Below are positions 48,406-58,389 of a DNA stretch of 64,000 nucleotides, in pieces. Within the stretch, counting starts at the first letter, position 1. The number at the start of each line of letters is the position of its first letter. The DNA comes from Spinacia oleracea (lineage: Eukaryota > Streptophyta > Magnoliopsida > Caryophyllales > Amaranthaceae): assembly GCF_020520425.1 (NCBI RefSeq), contig NC_079489.1, positions 15,276,001 to 15,340,000 of the forward strand. Reading direction: 5' to 3'. The notes below the pieces were generated by a model, which saw only the letters and a list, made by a program, of their open reading frames with translations, made no database searches and had not been told where the DNA came from. The position numbers were made by a program, and so were the translations under genes.

Positions 48406-49699
48406 TGTAATACCCCGAATTTTTAAAACTAGATTAATTATGCTTAATTATTTTTATTTAGCTAAAATCGTTTTAAATCCTAATTTCAAACTTTATTTTA
48501 ATTTAACGAAGCTTCATTTCGTTTGGAATTTTAATATTGTTACCCGATTTATTTTTCAGATTATATAATTTAATTTTATATTTACGATCTTAACGACGTT
48601 TCTAAATCGTAATTATTTTCGAATTTCTAATAATTTCGAAACGTTCTTATTTTATTCAAAAACTAAATTTATTTTTCGTTAATGATATTTTTTATAAAGA
48701 ATTATTTTAGCTAAACATTTCTATTTTTAGTAGTTTCCAAAAATAGCGAAAACAATTCTGAATTTTAGTTCAACTATGCAAAACTACGAAAATGCCCTTG
48801 AAATATCAAAATTTCATTTCTCTTCTTCTCTCTTTGCTCTCCACGTATAAGCCAGAAGGAAACTCATCCTTCCTTCTTATCTTCCCAAAAATCAGACTCA
48901 ATTCATTGCAAAGTCCCAATTGCTTCTTTCTTCTTCTTTTACAAATTCAGTTGTTCAGAATTTGAGTTCAACCTCAAACCAAAAATCCAAATTCAATTCC
49001 ACTTCCCTCCTCTTCTCTGATTCGAAACACCACCACCACAACAGCCACCGACCACCACCATTCCCACCACTGTTCGACCACCACCCCAGCACCACTCGGC
49101 CACCCAGAAACGCCACCACGCCCCACCGTACTTTCCCCTGCTCTCCTCCTCCTTCGTCGCAACTCCTCTGCCCTCCCCTGCCTCCCTTTTTCCTCGTTTC
49201 CCTTGCTGCGCCACCACACCGCAACCACCACACCCCGTCACCCTCACCATTCGGTGAACCAAGCTCTGCCGTCCCAAATTTCCCGGCGAGCCCCCACTGC
49301 CTCCTCCCAGAACCACCCCAAAGCACCCCTGAAACTCCCACTTGTTATTTCCCTGTTCGTGCTCCCCTCCCTCTCTCCCGTCGTTCTCCCGCAAGAAGAC
49401 AACCACCACCACCGTCGCCTCCGACGCGGGTTCACGTGGCTGCGCCGCCCAGCTTAGACGCCCTCCCTCCTCTCCTCTCTCCTTCGTGCTCCCCTGTCTC
49501 ACCCCACCCTCTGCCTTGTTCCTTTCCAGAAACCAAAATCAATTTTGGTTTTGGTTTTTATTCTCCTTAAAACCCACAAATTAATTGGGCCACTCTAATT
49601 TGGGCTTTTGGTAAGAAATTAGTTGCTATTTCAGATTTTGTAACTTATTAATCTCCATGTTTTAATAAAATTTTATGATATAATTATTATTATTTACTA

Positions 49700-52639
49700 C
49701 TCCCTCCGTTTCTTTTTGATGTTCCTGTTTGGAGTTGTGGGTGGAAATTAAGAAACTGGAATCTTTTAATGATTGGGGGTAAGAGTAATGATTGGGTGTA
49801 AGAGATTGGTATTTGTGAATAAAGTAAGGAGAGAGAAAACATTAAACAAATAAGGATAATTGAGATATTTTATTTAATTAAAGGGAAAATCAGAAAATCT
49901 GTTACAAAAGGGACCACTTTTGTTGAGTTGGGGACCTCAACACAAAAAACGGACCAATGAGAAGTCTGTGTTCTCAAACACATGGATCAGTTTCATCATT
50001 TTTTCCACCAAAAAATTTGAGGGAAATTTCCCTCCAAAATGAAAATTAGGATTTCCCTCCAACTAAAAAAACAGAGTACACATATAAAAGACTTCTTGTT
50101 TTGCAAACATAAATACAACTTGATAAAACTTCCAACCTCAATCTCTGACATAACTTGGCTTCCAAAAAAAAAATACCATGGCTTCAGATCAAGAGGAAGA
50201 TGAATTCCTCGGATTTTCAGATGATGAAGGTGATGGTTCCAGCACGGATTCTGACTCGGGGGACGAAGGAGTTGCTGTTGAAACTGATGCAGTGCCCTTA
50301 AATGCTCATCAATACGGGGACATGGAGCAATTTCAGCAAGTACCAGATTTAAATGAACTGGCACAAGACTTTCCAAATGAAGATGAGACAGCATCAGCAA
50401 ATTCAGCAAACTCACAGGTTGTTCCATATTTATTTGATTTAAACACCCCTCAAATAGATGAGTCAGAAACACCTCCATACCATCAAACATCAACTCCAAT
50501 TAACATTGTTCATCATAAGCCGGGGAAGCAAAGGTTAACTGTTGGATTGAAGTTGGAAATTTTGATTTTCCTGCTTCGTAGGAAAAAACCAGGTTTAGAG
50601 AAACTCATTAAGGGGACAATCACAGAGGCAGCAATCAAGTATGATTACACTCCAAGAACAATCGGAAAAATATGGAACAAGGCTAGGAGACAGCAGGAAG
50701 CAATGCAAACATATGATATGTCCACCAACTTCCACAAATGTGGCAGAAAAAGAAAAGAAGTACCATATGAACAAATTGTAGCGATTGCAATGGGGGACAT
50801 AACATGTATTATAGATCTTGCAAGGATGCTTAATTTGAGCCCGTCAACAGTTTGGAGATTAATCAAGAGAAAGGTGTTAAAGGCTCACTCAAGTCCCTTA
50901 TGTCCCGGCATTTCAGAAACTTGCAAGATGACAAGAATGAGATGGGTACTTAGATTAATTATGGATTACTCAATACCACATGACCCAACATATTATGGCA
51001 TGTTTGACTTCGTTCACATAGATGAAAAATGGTTTTACCTAACACAGAAAAGTCAAAGAGTATATCTTGCAAACAATGAACCAAAGCCACACAGAATTGG
51101 AAAGTCAAGAACAAAAATCCCTAAGTTTATGTTCATGGCAGCAGTGGCAAGGCCAAGATGGGGTGATGATGGGAATTGTGAGTTTGATGGAAAATTGGGT
51201 ATTTTTCCATTCACAAATTCAGTTGCAGCTAAAAGAACATCAAAGAACAGAGTGAAGGGGACACTAGAAACCAAGCCAGTGAAGTCAGTGAATCAAATAG
51301 CAACAAGGGCCATGATGATCAACATGTTAATTCCAGCAATCAAAGAGAAATGGCCACCTCATGTCGGGGAAAAGGTGATATACATAATTCAAGACAACGC
51401 AAAAGCACCCATATTGCAATCTGATCCAGAGTGGCAACAACACTACAAACAAGATGGGTTTACTTTTGTATTAACTCAACAACCAGCAAACAGTCCAGAT
51501 TGTAACATATTGGATTTGGGATTTTTTAGGTCAATACAATCACTCATGCATAAGAAAATGCCAAAGACAGTGGAAGATTTAAGTGGAGCAGTGATTGACG
51601 CTTATAAAGAACTTCATCCAAAGACATTGTCTAATGTGTGGATGACACTCCAATATGTGGGAAATGAAATTCTAAAACACAAGGGAGACAATAACTACCA
51701 ACTTCCACACAACAAGAAAAAAATTTTAGAGGATGAAGGCAATCTGCCAGAACAAGTGAAGGCACCAATATGGGCAGTGAATGAGTGCACACAACTCTAT
51801 GATGAATGGAAAGCAAATCAATGAAGCAAGGGGAAAAAGATAGGTAACTTTTTGTGTTTTGGGGACATGTTTTGAAAGTAACACGAATATTTAAAATGTC
51901 ACTTTTGTGGGCTTGAATGTAAGCATTACATGTAGGCAAAACATTTTGTAAGTGTCAATCATTTTGGAAAATTCAATGAATGAAATCAATGTTATTAATG
52001 AGAATGTTGTTTTTTAATTTATAACATAACATAACCAAGGCAAGACAAGAAAAAGGCAGCAAGAACAAGGAAAAAGGCAACACAAATATCCTTGTTCTGA
52101 CTTTTATAACAGAACATAACCAAGGCAACACAAATATAACCAACATAACAAAAAAGATCAAACATAACATAACTTTATAACATAACATAACCAAGGCAAC
52201 ACAAGAAAAAGGCAGCAAGAACAAGGGAAAAGGTAACAAGAAAAAGGCAGCAACAACAATGCACAGGGGACATGTTTAGAAACAAACAACACACAAAGAT
52301 CTCAGAATGTCCCCAAGCATCCCTGACACAAACCCCAACCACTAATACTTAGCTCCTGAAAAGCATCATTGATGCTAATGGCGCATGAGTGTTAATGGAA
52401 GAAAGGGTTTGAGTCTCAGCACATGATGACTCATCATTGATCACACAAAATATGTTATTTTGGGTCTAAAGGGGACAACTAGCAACTAAGTAAACAAGAC
52501 ATGAATTCAATTTCATTGTTGCCCAAGACATTAAAACTGGCAAAAGATCGGAAAGCCAAAACAAATCATGTCAAAGTAATTAGTTTCTTAATTTCCACCC
52601 ACAACTCCAAACAGGAACATCAAAAAGAAACGGAGGGAG
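49700..52639 (+). mobile_element. Mariner-like element with perfect 58-bp TIRs
   Basis: Left inverted repeat 49700-49757 and right inverted repeat 52582-52639 match at all 58 positions, with TA at 49698-49699 and 52640-52641. The 2,940-bp element holds one intact transposase gene. It has what a self-mobile plant mariner-like element is expected to carry. The CTCCCTCC ends are the same as those of the Stowaway MITEs in the window. Confidence 0.9.
50178..51824 (+). CDS. Mariner-like transposase, plant DD39D type
   Basis: Cuts and pastes the mariner-like element. One uninterrupted exon of 548 aa; the start is in good context (ACCATGG). Residues 1-110 are acidic and low in complexity. Two helix-turn-helix-like segments follow (about residues 135-175, with ITEAAIKYDYTPRTIGKIW, and 205-235, with IDLARMLNLSPSTVWRLI) for TIR binding. 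The catalytic triad is Asp in VHIDEKWF, Asp in IIQDNAKAP and Asp in NILDLGFF, the last two separated by 39 residues, the DD39D spacing of plant mariner-like elements. The C-terminal KTVEDLSGAV and WMTLQYVGNEILKHKGDN segments are also typical. Length is in the usual 500-550 aa range. No defect seen, so it may be active; this cannot be shown from sequence alone. Confidence 0.95.
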   Translation: MASDQEEDEFLGFSDDEGDGSSTDSDSGDEGVAVETDAVPLNAHQYGDMEQFQQVPDLNELAQDFPNEDETASANSANSQVVPYLFDLNTPQIDESETPPYHQTSTPINIVHHKPGKQRLTVGLKLEILIFLLRRKKPGLEKLIKGTITEAAIKYDYTPRTIGKIWNKARRQQEAMQTYDMSTNFHKCGRKRKEVPYEQIVAIAMGDITCIIDLARMLNLSPSTVWRLIKRKVLKAHSSPLCPGISETCKMTRMRWVLRLIMDYSIPHDPTYYGMFDFVHIDEKWFYLTQKSQRVYLANNEPKPHRIGKSRTKIPKFMFMAAVARPRWGDDGNCEFDGKLGIFPFTNSVAAKRTSKNRVKGTLETKPVKSVNQIATRAMMINMLIPAIKEKWPPHVGEKVIYIIQDNAKAPILQSDPEWQQHYKQDGFTFVLTQQPANSPDCNILDLGFFRSIQSLMHKKMPKTVEDLSGAVIDAYKELHPKTLSNVWMTLQYVGNEILKHKGDNNYQLPHNKKKILEDEGNLPEQVKAPIWAVNECTQLYDEWKANQ

Positions 52640-53740
52640 TAATTAGTAATTAGTAATTAAAAGGCAGCATGCACAAGTCAAAGGATTCGATTTAGACAAC
52701 CATTTCATCATTGAACATAAGCAATTTCTAAATGATTAATTACCTCATCACCAATTTACCAAAGGGGATACATGATCACTCAATCATGTGAAATGATCTC
52801 TATTCCCTTTGGGAAATGGTGATGAAGGACATGTTTAGAAACAAACAACACACAAAGATCTCAGAATGTCCCCAAGCATCCCTGACACAAACCCCAACCA
52901 CTAACACTTAGCTCCTGAAAAGCATTATTGAAGCTAATGGCGCATGAGTGTTAATGGAATAAAGGGTTTGAGTCTCAGCAAATGATGACTCATCATTGAT
53001 CACACAAAAGCAATAACAAGGCAGCAATGAACAAGGCACAACAAAAGTCAACCATGCAAGGGAAGTCACAAGATCAAGTTCAATCTCTAAGTAAACAAGA
53101 CATGAATTGCCTCTCCGATCTAATGCCAGTTTATATGTGACGGAATCAATTTAATTGTTTCCAAAGACATTTAAACTGGCAAAAGATCAAAAAGCCAAAA
53201 CAAATCATGCTCATTTTGTTCTCAGATGTCCCCAAGCTTCATAGTTACAAATCCAAACTACAAACACTTAGCGCCTGAAAAGTATATCAAAAGACATACT
53301 AATGGCAGCATGAGTGGTTGTAGTTATTTAGACTTGCTTCTCAGCATTTAAAAGACTAATCATTGAACACATATACACAAGGAACATAAAGGGGACAATA
53401 AACAACACAACAAACAAGACGTTAATTGTATTTTGATCTTCCCGTTTCTATTTTTGGACATAAATCTTGACCAAAATACCTTATATGTCCACATAATTAC
53501 ACCAAATACCTTAGAATCTTTTCAAATTCAACCCTCAAAATCATCACCTTTCCTTATTTAATTATTTTATCTTTCCCAAAAACCCCACCCACCCCTCCCT
53601 TTGTAAATGTCGTTGTGTTGCTTGCTTCTCAGCATTTAAAAGACTCATCATTGAACACATATACACAAGGCACATAAAGGGGACAATAAACAAAACAACA
53701 TACAGGACAAGAATTGCCTCCACGAGAATTGACTCATCAC
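52255..53740. repeat. Dispersed direct repeats across the inner TIR
   Basis: A block of about 200 bp (GGACATGTTTAGAAACAAAC... to CATCATTGATCACACAAAA) at 52270-52470 recurs at 52828-53008 with about 95% identity. Weaker third and fourth copies of parts occur near 53220-53420 and 53625-53720 (ACACATATACACAAGG, AAAGGGGACAATAAACAA). The repeats link the transposase element to the extra right-hand segment. Confidence 0.8.
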
Positions 53741-54132
53741 AAACCACCATGGACAGATTGCAAACAGGTGCAAATCAACTGAATACAGGGACATATGATC
53801 AATAGAGGGACATATTGGCATACCATCATATCAGAACTGAATACAGGGACATATTGGCATACCATCGTATCAACATTTGCATACATGGACATATAGTATC
53901 ATCATTTGCATACAATCATAAACCAAAACAGGGTCATATCAGCATGAATGAAAACAGAGCATTTTCCAATATATAAACCCTCCAAACTCCACATGATACA
54001 ACAAATCCTCCTTCATCAACAACAACAAATCCAACCCTGCCAGCAAGAGATCACACTTGCTGGCCTACAATTTCAACAGCTGACCATGTTTACTACATTG
54101 CTAATTAAAATTAAAAGAGGGGACAGACTTAT

Positions 54133-55551
54133 CTAATCATGATCATCTTGATCATCTGCAACAGTCGTGTCTTTATTCTTTGAATAAGGGAACGCTGATG
54201 ATTCTTGCCCAGAGGACACAGCAGAATTGCCATCCTCATTCTCACACTCACCAACGTAATATAGTTCCCACGAGTCAGACCGAGTGGGTTCCTTGCACGC
54301 AATAGGGGACATAAAATACGGGTCATTAGCATCATCAAAAAAACAGAGTCTTTAAAATTACAATGTTTTTTTAACCAACCAATTCATGATTTATGCAACC
54401 AAAAGATCCACGATTTCATGACATGCAACTCAACAAAAACCCACATGCAAATGAATAAAAATCATTTACATCAACACATTCAACTGAAACCCATTATAAC
54501 ATCAAAAAACGAGATAAATTCAAAAAATCCCCAAAATAATCAGGCAAATTCAGATCCACGATTTTATGACATGCAACTCAACAAAAACCCACATGCAAAT
54601 GAATACAAATAATTTTCATCAACACATTCAACTCAAACCCATTATAACATCAAAAAACGAGATAAATTCAAAAAAACCCCAAATAATTCAGGCAAATTCA
54701 GATCCACTTTTTATGACATGCAACTCAAAAAAAACCCACATGCAAATGAATTCAAATCATTTTCATCAACACATTAAACTGAAACCCAATATAACATCAA
54801 AATACGAGATAAATTCAAAAAATTCCCAAATAAATCAGGCAAATTCAGATCCACTTTTTTATGACATGCAACTCAACAAAAACCCACATGCAAATGAATA
54901 AAAATCATTTTCATCAACACATTCAACTCAAACCCATTACAACATCAAAAAACGAGATAAATTCAAAAAATCCCCAAATAATTCAGGCAAATTCAGATCC
55001 ACTTTTTATGACATGCAACTCAAAAAAAACCCACATGCAAATGAATTCAAATCATTTTCATCAACACATTAAACTGAAACCCAATATAACATCAAAATAC
55101 GAGATAAATTCAAAAATTCCCCAAATAAATCAGGCAAATTCAGAACCCCCATTTTTTGACATGCAACTCAACAAAAACCCTAATTTTTCAGATCTTAACC
55201 ATAAATACAAACAAACACAAGAATTTATACCTCATCTTTGTCATCTTCTCCAAAAAAGCGCAGATCTGCGGCTGTGGGCAACCGATCGTCGTATTTCGAT
55301 TCGACCTCTTCACCAGGCTCTACCTCCCACTTCTCGAACCACGCCTTTAGATAGTTACGAGTGCTCGTATTCTCCTTCTGGGCCATCATTCTATTATGCA
55401 AAAACTCCGCCGAATATGAGTGCTCGCCGTTAGGGGCACTTACAGTTGGGACCCCAGTCACAACTTGGATCTGAGATTTGTTGGCCAGAAGTACCCAACA
55501 AATAAGAGGCCAAACTTTTTGAAGTCGAAGACCCCATACAGATCGGAACAA
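54133..55551 (-). CDS. Possible second gene in the mariner-like unit, two exons, unknown function
   Basis: Exon 1 (about 55551-55231) reads ...NGEHSYSAEFLHNRMMAQ and KENTSTRNYLKAWFEKWEVE, then PGEEVESKYDDRLPTAADL and RFFGEDDKDE, ending at a GT donor (GAG|GTATAA). Exon 2 (54291-54133) follows a CTAAT branch-like site and a GCAAG acceptor and reads EPTRSDSWELYYVGECENED, then a very acidic tail ending ADDQDDHD and stop. Phase is 0 at both borders. Nothing is recognised by family. It is a small acidic protein on the strand opposite the transposase. Its true start is uncertain: the frame opens at 55551, a different frame has ATG at 55537 (MGSSTSKSLASYLLGTSG, stop soon after), and an internal MMAQKEN start is possible. 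It could be an element accessory gene or a captured host gene. Confidence 0.4.
54418..55190. repeat. 147-148-bp tandem repeat inside the second gene's intron
   Basis: About five and a half copies of a unit starting ATGACATGCAACTCAA at 54418, 54566, about 54713, 54861, about 55008 and 55156. Units alternate in two types, so the pair starting at 54566 is repeated as a 295-bp higher-order unit at 54861. It lies entirely between the proposed donor at 55230 and acceptor at 54292. The plus-strand open frames here are artefacts of the repeat. Confidence 0.9.
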
Positions 55552-57449
55552 TAAAAAACCCTAGAAATCTCCGACGAAAACCCGCAAAAAAATTTGGAAC
55601 AAATCAACTCGCAACGACAAAAAGGGACGATTATAGGGGACAAATTTATAGGGGATCTGATCAGATCAATATTTGGATCAAAGTTTTTGAAGATTTTCAC
55701 TCGAAAGCTCTTCAGATCCGAGAGAGAGGAGGAGAAAATGAGAGAACAGAGGCGGAGATTATTAGGGTTTTCTGAAGAACAGAGGAGAGAGAGAGAGAAC
55801 ATAGGAGGTTTCTTAAGAGAGAGAGACGGAAAATGAGAGATGAGGAGGTTGAATGAGGGGAGAGAGAGAGAGACAACGACGTTTAAAAAGGGAGGGGTGG
55901 GTGGGTTTTTTCGGAAAGATAAATAATTAAATAAGGTATGGTGATGATTTTGAGGGTTGAATTTGAAAAGATTCTAAGGTATTTGGTGTAATTATGTGGA
56001 AATATAAGGGTATTTTGGTCAAATTTTATGTCCAAAAATAGAAACAGGAACATCAAAAAGAAACGACGTAAATAGAAACAGGAACATCAAAAAGAAACGG
56101 AGGGAGTAATAAATTATTTATTATTTTCAGGTTTAATTATCGATTTTCCTAAAATAAGTTACTGGTTTATTTATAAAAATGGAGTTTAGATAATATTTTC
56201 ATGAAAACCGGTTTTAAGAAATATAAATATATATTTCGATTAAAATTTCGTTTAATAATAATATTTCCATTAAATTTCGGAATTATACTTTTTATTAAAA
56301 TTCGTTAACTATAAATTCATTACTTATAAAATTTATTATTTATAAAATATCGATTTTAGATTATTTATTATTTTAAGTAACTAATTGAATGATTTAATAT
56401 TCTGAAAGAAATTGGACTTGGAGCTCAGGAAGAACGATCCATCAAACGGGAAGTGTAAAACGACGGTTGAGGTAACGGCTATTGCTAGTACCCGCAATTC
56501 CCTTCCAAATGTGTTTATTATGACAATATGATTGAATTTATGAACTGAATGCTTTGACATGTTTTATTGAATTGCGGGAAATGAATTATGTTTTGATTGA
56601 ATAATTTATTATAATATGATTTGATGGAATTATTCCTTATATTATGATTGATTGAATTTCTTATAAAATGATATTATGATTGATTGAATTTCTTATAAAA
56701 TGATGTTTATAAGAAACCATGAAAGAAAGGATGTTCAATCGTATGATCCAAAGGAAATATGTTACTTCAATCGAAGTAAAAAGGCTAAAATGTAAAATTG
56801 AACGAAACATGATAAATGAAAGTGAAAGACCTAGTCCGTTTGGCAGTATATGTTCACAGGTTACGATTCTCGGTCATGCATGTACCCATGGGGCATCCGC
56901 CCATTGAGCCAAGGCTCTCATGTTTTTCGGGCCAAGGCCCCATGTTTTATGGACAGCGGTCCATCGTGGAAGACGTTCCACCATGTCATACTTGTCACGG
57001 CTAGCATGTGCACCCTAAATCTATAAATGAATTAAATAAAGGACTTTATAAAAAGTTTTACTAAATTCTATTCTCCCTGTGTTATTAAATAAAATGAGTT
57101 GAAATGAATTTACGTTGCTAGGGTAGTCGTTACTGAGTCTTCGGCTCACCGTTTAGTTTTCCGTTTTAGGTACTGCGGGGAACGATGGACACGAGTAGTG
57201 GCGAGGAATTCCACTTTAGTATCAATCGCCTAGTTTATGCTTAACGTTGTAATAGTTTAATTAAAGACTTTTAGTAAGTTATGTACTTTTATTTTGAGGA
57301 CTATTATATTATTTTGGGAGTTCTAATAGATTATGAATGATGGTTGCCTTGTAATTCCCAAGAGGGAGTTACGGCAGTAATGTCCCGACCAAATTAGGTT
57401 AATTCCGCTGCTTAATTTCTTGAATTAGGGGTCGGGGCGTTACACCTGT

Positions 57450-57530: not shown

Positions 57531-57538
57531 GTCTACCT

Positions 57539-58389
57539 AGAGCTGTCAAAAATTGACCCGACCCGAAAAACCGACCTGAACCGACCTGTCTTTTTAAGGA
57601 CCTGGATCCGACCCGAGACCCGAAATTTTGTTAAAATAGGAAACCCGTAACCCGACCGTATCCAACCCGTTAAAATCGACGACCGATTTCGACCCGTTAA
57701 TGCATGACCCGGACCCGAACCTGACACCCGACCGCAAGATAACCGATAACAAAACTGAGTCAGCTTACCCGACCGAATAATGACCCGAACCCGATTCAAC
57801 ACCCGACCCGATGTCAACCCAAAACGATTATAACCCGATGAAACCTGTTATTGACTTAATTCGTGACAACCCGTTACCTGAATTTACGCGACCTGTTGAC
57901 GAACCGATTTGTCATTGACCTAACTAAATATTAACTTACATCAAGTTAATATTGTTTTTTATAATTACCTAATCTAGAACAAGCGAAAAGCGTTAACCAA
58001 ATTTATAAAAGTTAATTATAAGGTTAAAACTTGACTTAGACCTAATAACTATCATACCCGGTCTTAACCCGTGTCCGAAGTGAACCCGACCTGACTTTTA
58101 ACCGACCCGGTAATTATCCGATCCGAACTTGACCCGACTCGTTAAGACCCGAACCCGTAATTGTACCCGACTAGAAAAAGACCCGACCCGAACCCGAACC
58201 GAACCCGGCCTATACCGAAACGAAAAAATAACCCGACATGACCCGAATTTTTTTCAACCTGACCGAATCCGACCTGAACCCGACCTGCACCCGGTTATAA
58301 AATGACCCGACATGACCCGACCAGATCATGACCCGAGACCCGAGATGACCAGACCCGGACCCAACTCGAGTAACCGTTTTGACAGCTCT
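57539..58389. mobile_element. Foldback element packed with GACCCG motifs
   Basis: Ends AGAGCTGTCAAAA and TTTTGACAGCTCT are inverted repeats. GTCTACC flanks both sides (57531-57537, 58392-58398), with two extra bases on the right, suggesting an imperfect 7-8-bp duplication as in hAT elements. Inside, GACCCG, ACCCGA and CCGACC recur dozens of times, making an 850-bp GC-skewed body in an AT-rich setting. Non-coding; the short minus-strand frames are a product of the repeats. Confidence 0.75.

Follow-up and report, generated by a model that had tools for sequence, protein, structure and literature searches.

The window, by which we mean the whole 64,000-nt stretch of spinach DNA analysed, contains a mariner-like element with a transposase frame on one strand and, tail to tail with it on the other strand and inside the same ends, a candidate second gene that we named ORFB in this analysis. 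The features are as follows.

49700-56106, unstranded: apparent two-gene plant mariner-like element of family A, 6407 bp, with CTCCCTCCGTTTC at 49700 (+) and 56106 (-)
49692-49730 and 56076-56114: inverted arms of the element, 97%, a few flanking bases included
49698-49699, unstranded: left TA target-site duplication
56107-56108, unstranded: right TA target-site duplication
50178-51824, plus strand: transposase frame, open, 548 aa, DD39D
52582-52649, unstranded: internal inverted copy of the left end, 68 nt, 96%
53431-53616, unstranded: inner arm of the subterminal inverted repeat bracketing ORFB, about 186 nt
55873-56058, unstranded: outer arm of the same repeat, about 186 nt
54133-54291, minus strand: ORFB exon 2 with the stop codon (54133-54135)
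54292-55230, minus strand: ORFB intron, phase 0, 939 nt, GTATAA...TGCAAG
54404-55180: 148-nt tandem repeat in the ORFB intron
54421-55166, minus strand: eleven TTGCATGT motifs, all on the ORFB sense strand
55231-55537, minus strand: ORFB exon 1, 307 nt and frameshifted in the window, 306 nt in 19 other parsed copies

Not only does the window transposase have the DD39D catalytic triad of PlantMar elements, the spacing of 39 having been counted by hand on its translation, but CTCCCTCC terminal inverted repeats and the TA duplication are present in all 13 copies with both ends printed (the window, L011, L013 and L019-L028). The ends read TA-CTCCCTC in 13/13, and the left end of L023 is CTCCCTCT. 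PlantMar elements are described as typical Tc1/mariner of 2-6 kb in an extract of PMC7325037, and plant mariners usually have a single transposase according to the excerpted text of PMC4423477; an earlier note on this DNA gives one gene as the normal description of such elements. The elements described here depart from that usual description in having two genes and 6.2-7.5 kb, and we keep them in PlantMar because the size and gene count are descriptive and not phylogenetic.

Pairs similar to the subterminal repeat that brackets ORFB occur in about eight other family A copies (L009-L011, L013-L018), and none is listed for L012, also of family A, or for the B copies L019-L023 and L025. Pairs similar to the internal copy of the left end occur in L009, L010, L015 and L016, with a shorter one (34 nt) in L012. 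Outside the element, CCCGA units are repeated densely at 57533-58340 of the window, apparently as another repeat.

Could the two genes belong to two neighbouring units, a transposase-only mariner at 49700-52639 and a separate ORFB unit at 53431-56058 with its own inverted repeat? Both repeats do exist, in the window as well as in several further copies of family A, and the internal left-end copy at 52582-52649 possibly delimits a 2.9-kb transposase-only sub-unit. However, L011 and L013, for which no internal end copy is listed, hold both genes between the outer ends, no inverted end copy other than the outer pair is listed for L019-L023 and L025 of family B (the comparison being uninformative for L024, L026, L027 and L028), and alignments of near-identical B and C copies span the whole element, from one outer end to the other. 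On the L011/L013 layout and the outer-end alignments we rejected two adjacent independent units, which we consider highly improbable.

The two-exon reading that the earlier note had proposed stands, its junction 55230/54292 being that of the intron found at 54292-55230, with both exons on the minus strand. Both exons were found in 21/21 loci, consisting of the window and 20 loci of 9.0-9.9 kb (L009-L028) selected for matching ORFB, transposase or both; donor and acceptor strings were likewise present in 21/21, although those strings had served as search keys. The distance from the ATG to the donor is 306 nt in 19 of the 20 parsed copies among these loci (307 in the window; L011 was unparsed), and 18 of the 19 copies with a 306-nt exon 1 are open across both exons, L013 having a stop. 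A second set consisted of 20 shorter regions from further copies: 15 have the donor at nt 306, the remaining five are without the required start or donor, and several copies have stops. ORFB is broken in the window, where a frameshift lies about 35 codons into exon 1, and also in L011, L013 and several of the second-set copies. The proposed extension of the frame upstream toward 55551 did not survive: the other parsed copies instead keep a start codon whose position corresponds to window 55537, and the upstream frame is not the kept one because exon 1 of the window is 307 nt long and frameshifted. The ORFB intron is presumably spliced.

Is ORFB a chance reading frame? In a protein search of the genome with exon 1, the best 150 of 266 candidates were scored, all with E 7e-29 or better, and 146 of these 150 have no in-frame stop within the match. 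When the codons of CDWGxxCxCP were sought exactly across the whole genome, there were 203 matches, versus 0 for the reversed control pattern. Differences between families are distributed over codon positions 1:2:3 as 23:19:54, 19:12:48 and 14:18:52, and both the frame and the intron borders are kept between families, contrary to what a frame absent from other copies would have given. A chance frame is ruled out by at least 150 genomic exon 1 matches, the kept frame and selection between families.

Of four between-family comparisons of the full ORFB frame, one is saturated; the other three have dN/dS of 0.116, 0.103 and 0.078, with bootstrap upper limits of 0.22-0.24, and these ratios are rough since between-family dS is near saturation. 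Taken separately, exon 1 is saturated in three of these four comparisons, and exon 2 has ratios of 0.17-0.29. The transposase has a dN/dS of 0.14-0.26 in ten family pairs, and ORFB exon 1 lies below it in six of the seven computable pairs, with three pairs saturated; pair C-F is the opposite, at 0.38 for ORFB versus 0.21 for the transposase. The comparison of synonymous with non-synonymous change that the earlier note had suggested thus yields between-family ratios of 0.08-0.12, comparable to the transposase, and judged from these substitution patterns ORFB is evidently kept by purifying selection between families. Within families the full-frame ratios run from 0.14 to 0.91 with limits that span 1 in 7/8 comparisons, and values for exon 2 by itself go up to 3.5; such wide ratios are expected of copies that decay after insertion, and they give no within-family proof of selection.

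Host genes are captured by plant transposons, and ORFB could be such a captured fragment, riding along without function for the element. A passenger would decay, yet a full frame with dN/dS near 0.1 and an unchanged intron position persist across diverged families, with at least 150 matches, and no Pfam match comes near its cut-off. We rejected the passenger fragment, which we regard as improbable, on the between-family dN/dS and its likeness to that of the transposase. As to its origin, ORFB may or may not have been captured from a host, an alternative that the earlier note had named; Pfam, NCBIfam and PDB gave no relative.

Among 678 candidate transposase copies, 79 were scored; in 51 of them ORFB exon 1 is found on the opposite strand, 3.1-4.6 kb downstream, and the nearest exon 1 match is never on the same strand as the transposase, both statements applying to the matches listed. 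For the transposase at C2:86496941 the nearest scored match is upstream, but another is listed 3.4 kb downstream. Windows were fetched for 20 of the other 28 transposases, and 18 of them held exon 1 (only its last 19 codons in L037), whereas ORFB is absent from its expected place in L047 and L048. ORFB is therefore present at the same place in 69 of the 71 judged copies (51 plus 20), across diverged families of this genome, in tail-to-tail pairing with the transposase on the opposite strand; the earlier note had asked whether such matches always sit next to transposases. In the reverse direction, a transposase was found beside the ORFB copies L068 (in L069) and L052 (in L071), none was matched in the 9.5 kb of L014, L017 and L018, where ORFB is present, and none lies within 3 kb of the ORFB copy L049 (L070).

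Near-identical copies at unrelated sites (L019/L020/L021 and L026/L027/L028) stop at TA and CTCCCTCC on both sides and hold both genes inside their common terminal repeats. Since these alignments go no further than the outer ends, the two genes travel together as a single unit. The layout, a convergent transposase and putative accessory gene inside shared ends, resembles that of MuDR. In the light of this pairing and co-mobility, the kept splice sites and frame, and the between-family purifying selection, the second gene that the earlier note had thought possible becomes the best explanation. With a probability of about 0.85, on sequence evidence, ORFB is a second element-borne gene of a PlantMar (DD39D) clade, convergent with the transposase in one mobile unit of 6.2-7.5 kb and encoding an acidic accessory protein of about 155 residues that purifying selection has maintained through the divergence of several families.

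How far does ORFB spread among the mariners of this genome? An exact search for the codons of the transposase motif HIDEKWF found 270 sites genome-wide versus 0 for the control, and the ORFB neighbourhood was scored at 100 listed sites (C1 to C3), with codon spelling as a proxy for family and ORFB recognised by its exact motif plus eight added rows, a recognition that misses diverged ORFBs. Among listed sites with the spelling of families A, B or C, a tail-to-tail ORFB lies within 10 kb in 57/69 and within 20 kb in 64/69, one B site also having a same-strand ORFB within 12 kb; with other spellings, a recognisable tail-to-tail ORFB was seen in 2/31. L072 (C1:102700200-102702100) represents a distinct mariner lineage, its transposase being 51% identical to that of the window over 335 residues, and no recognisable ORFB was found at the six sites of its spelling among the 100 listed. 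ORFB thus appears to mark one clade, and most other mariners here would be without ORFB or have one too diverged to recognise.

The predicted ORFB protein has 154-155 residues and is indeed acidic, as the earlier note had stated, with a pI of 4.28-4.60 in three copies. Exon 1 was compared in 33 distinct protein sequences, which come from 44 open copies of few families. They begin with MGSSxS[KR], where M1, S3, S6 and K/R7 are found in 33/33 and G2 and S4 in 32/33 each, followed by residues 8-14, which vary; the search key for starts fixed M1 and restricted residue 2 but left residues 6 and 7 free, and there are synonymous codon differences at G2, S3, S4 and S6. The consensus for N-myristoylation is an MGxxxS/T start with a basic residue 7, and the ORFB start, with G2 in 32/33 and S6 and K/R7 in 33/33, is a putative site of this kind. 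Further along comes a C-x5-C-x-C-x4-H cluster made up of C26, C32, C34 and H39, all four of them kept in at least 32/33. No relatives of ORFB were found in Pfam, NCBIfam or PDB, and of 74 pattern matches in viral contigs none was confirmed. The best weak Pfam match, a caulimovirus coat domain at E 0.011, is below its cut-off and is not believed. An AlphaFold model of exon 1 from the 33 sequences is of low confidence (mean pLDDT 49).

It is possible, though less likely than not, that ORFB is a direct transposition cofactor acting in DNA binding or in transposase import or assembly, like PIF/Harbinger ORF1. ORFB is the constant company of the transposase under comparable constraint, and Harbinger mobilisation requires two element proteins, as an extract of PMC2836001 states. 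Against a cofactor, the protein is acidic, and the Pfam scan of three spliced ORFB proteins detected no Myb or other DNA-binding domain, the Myb-like domain being the hallmark of PIF/Harbinger ORF1; mariners without recognisable ORFB coexist in the same genome; and a transposase cassette mobilises the bamboo element Ppmar2 in yeast, according to the excerpted portion of PMC9632168.

In 39 ORFB introns parsed from the window and 60 loci (L009-L068), TGCATG occurs 309 times in the ORFB sense orientation versus 14 antisense, and TTGCATGT 271 times versus 0. Every parsed intron has at least three TGCATG, and 37/39 have at least one TTGCATGT, the exceptions being L055 and L062. Many of these introns are near-identical copies, so that the independent evidence amounts to four groups, whose representative introns have no BLAST similarity to one another whereas the exons align, and in each of which the TGCATG array is present. 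The spacing is partly in 52-nt steps in families B and C and follows the 148-nt tandem unit in family A. Outside the intron there are 0 or 1 TTGCATGT per element in 11 elements checked, and the window as a whole has 14 copies, 11 of them in the ORFB intron, versus 2.85 in shuffles. A test of shared words was negative: three introns have 23 8-mers in common against a shuffled mean of 24.0, not above chance, and two 8-mers with at least two copies in each of the three against 1.26 shuffled, so that the case for the array rests on density and orientation. An oriented DNA array such as that of VANC21, a motif recognised at the RNA level and tandem duplication would each fit that orientation. TGCATG is presumably the core of the host RY/B3 site, and we also take it to resemble the animal RBFOX motif.

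Does ORFB bind this array and lower methylation, as an anti-silencing module of the VANC kind would? That TGCATG arrays recur in four intron groups with no BLAST similarity to one another speaks for such a module, as do two points in an extract of PMC5735166: the short motifs bound by VANC21 lie in dense arrays and share one orientation, and the tandem repeats of the VANC21 and VANB21 introns belong to such arrays. We nevertheless think this rather unlikely. No protein family relation was found in the Pfam scan, the motif is common to diverged families whereas VANC targets differ between families (same extract of PMC5735166), and shuffled introns share as many 8-mers as real ones. A host factor may read the array instead, since TGCATG is also the presumed RY/B3 core.

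What, then, might ORFB do? We infer that it aids proliferation of the element without catalysing transposition. The leading mechanism, which we hold tentatively and place only slightly ahead of a direct transposition cofactor, is that ORFB is a host-facing, membrane-tethered regulator. On this view N-myristoylation of the MGSSxS[KR] start would anchor ORFB at membranes, a metal or a partner might bind at the C-x5-C-x-C-x4-H cluster, the acidic parts may make contacts, and host control of the element, by silencing or signalling, could be dampened; the TGCATG intron array might boost or time ORFB expression. A membrane anchor is not easily reconciled with DNA binding at the intron array, and we know of no other DNA transposon with a membrane-tethered accessory protein. 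In its fullest form, which is speculative and on balance unlikely, this regulator reading would have a plant mariner clade gain a host-control gene, an independently evolved mariner counterpart of the mudrB/VANC strategy. Its product would be a small protein with a lipid anchor and a metal cluster that counters host silencing or signalling, and its expression, from the element's far end, would be under the control of an oriented TGCATG intron array.

Together with their small non-autonomous derivatives, plant mariners outnumber all other DNA transposons in rice and other grasses, as the excerpted PMC4423477 has it. In the part of the open-access literature covered, most subscription papers lying outside it, we found no plant mariner described with a second gene. 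The evidence points to a hitherto unrecognised helper protein in plant mariners. If the selected second gene is true, mariners too have evolved accessory proteins, and the clades with and without ORFB, as well as the families with many near-identical copies, offer a natural comparison for the roles of accessory genes; for annotators, ORFB is a family to separate from host genes.

Comparison with known systems places the element among PlantMar (Osmar, Soymar, Vulmar, Ppmar, Dcmar) by its CTCCCTCC ends, TA target site and DD39D transposase, and sets it apart by its 6.2-7.5 kb and its second, convergent, predicted spliced gene. VANDAL elements, which are of the Mutator type, and their VANC genes differ from ORFB in the motif, which here is common to diverged families; the accessory gene and the intron motif arrays and tandem repeats are alike (extract of PMC5735166). 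In the Pfam scan ORFB has no match near a cut-off. The two-gene convergent layout is that of MuDR (Mutator), with mudrA and mudrB convergently transcribed and the second of unknown function in the part of PMC3440606 available, but the MuDR transposase superfamily, ends and target site differ, and no sequence relation to ORFB was seen in Pfam. The target site of the Mutator superfamily is 9 bp in the extract of PMC4423477, and here DD39D and TA take the place of a Mutator-type transposase and that site. PIF/Harbinger ORF1 and the second ORF of CACTA likewise provide a second element-encoded protein beside the transposase (same extract of PMC4423477), in other superfamilies. A precedent for extra genes within Tc1/mariner itself comes from the Tec and TBE elements of ciliates, which have three ORFs in the extract of PMC7325037 and are DD34E elements.
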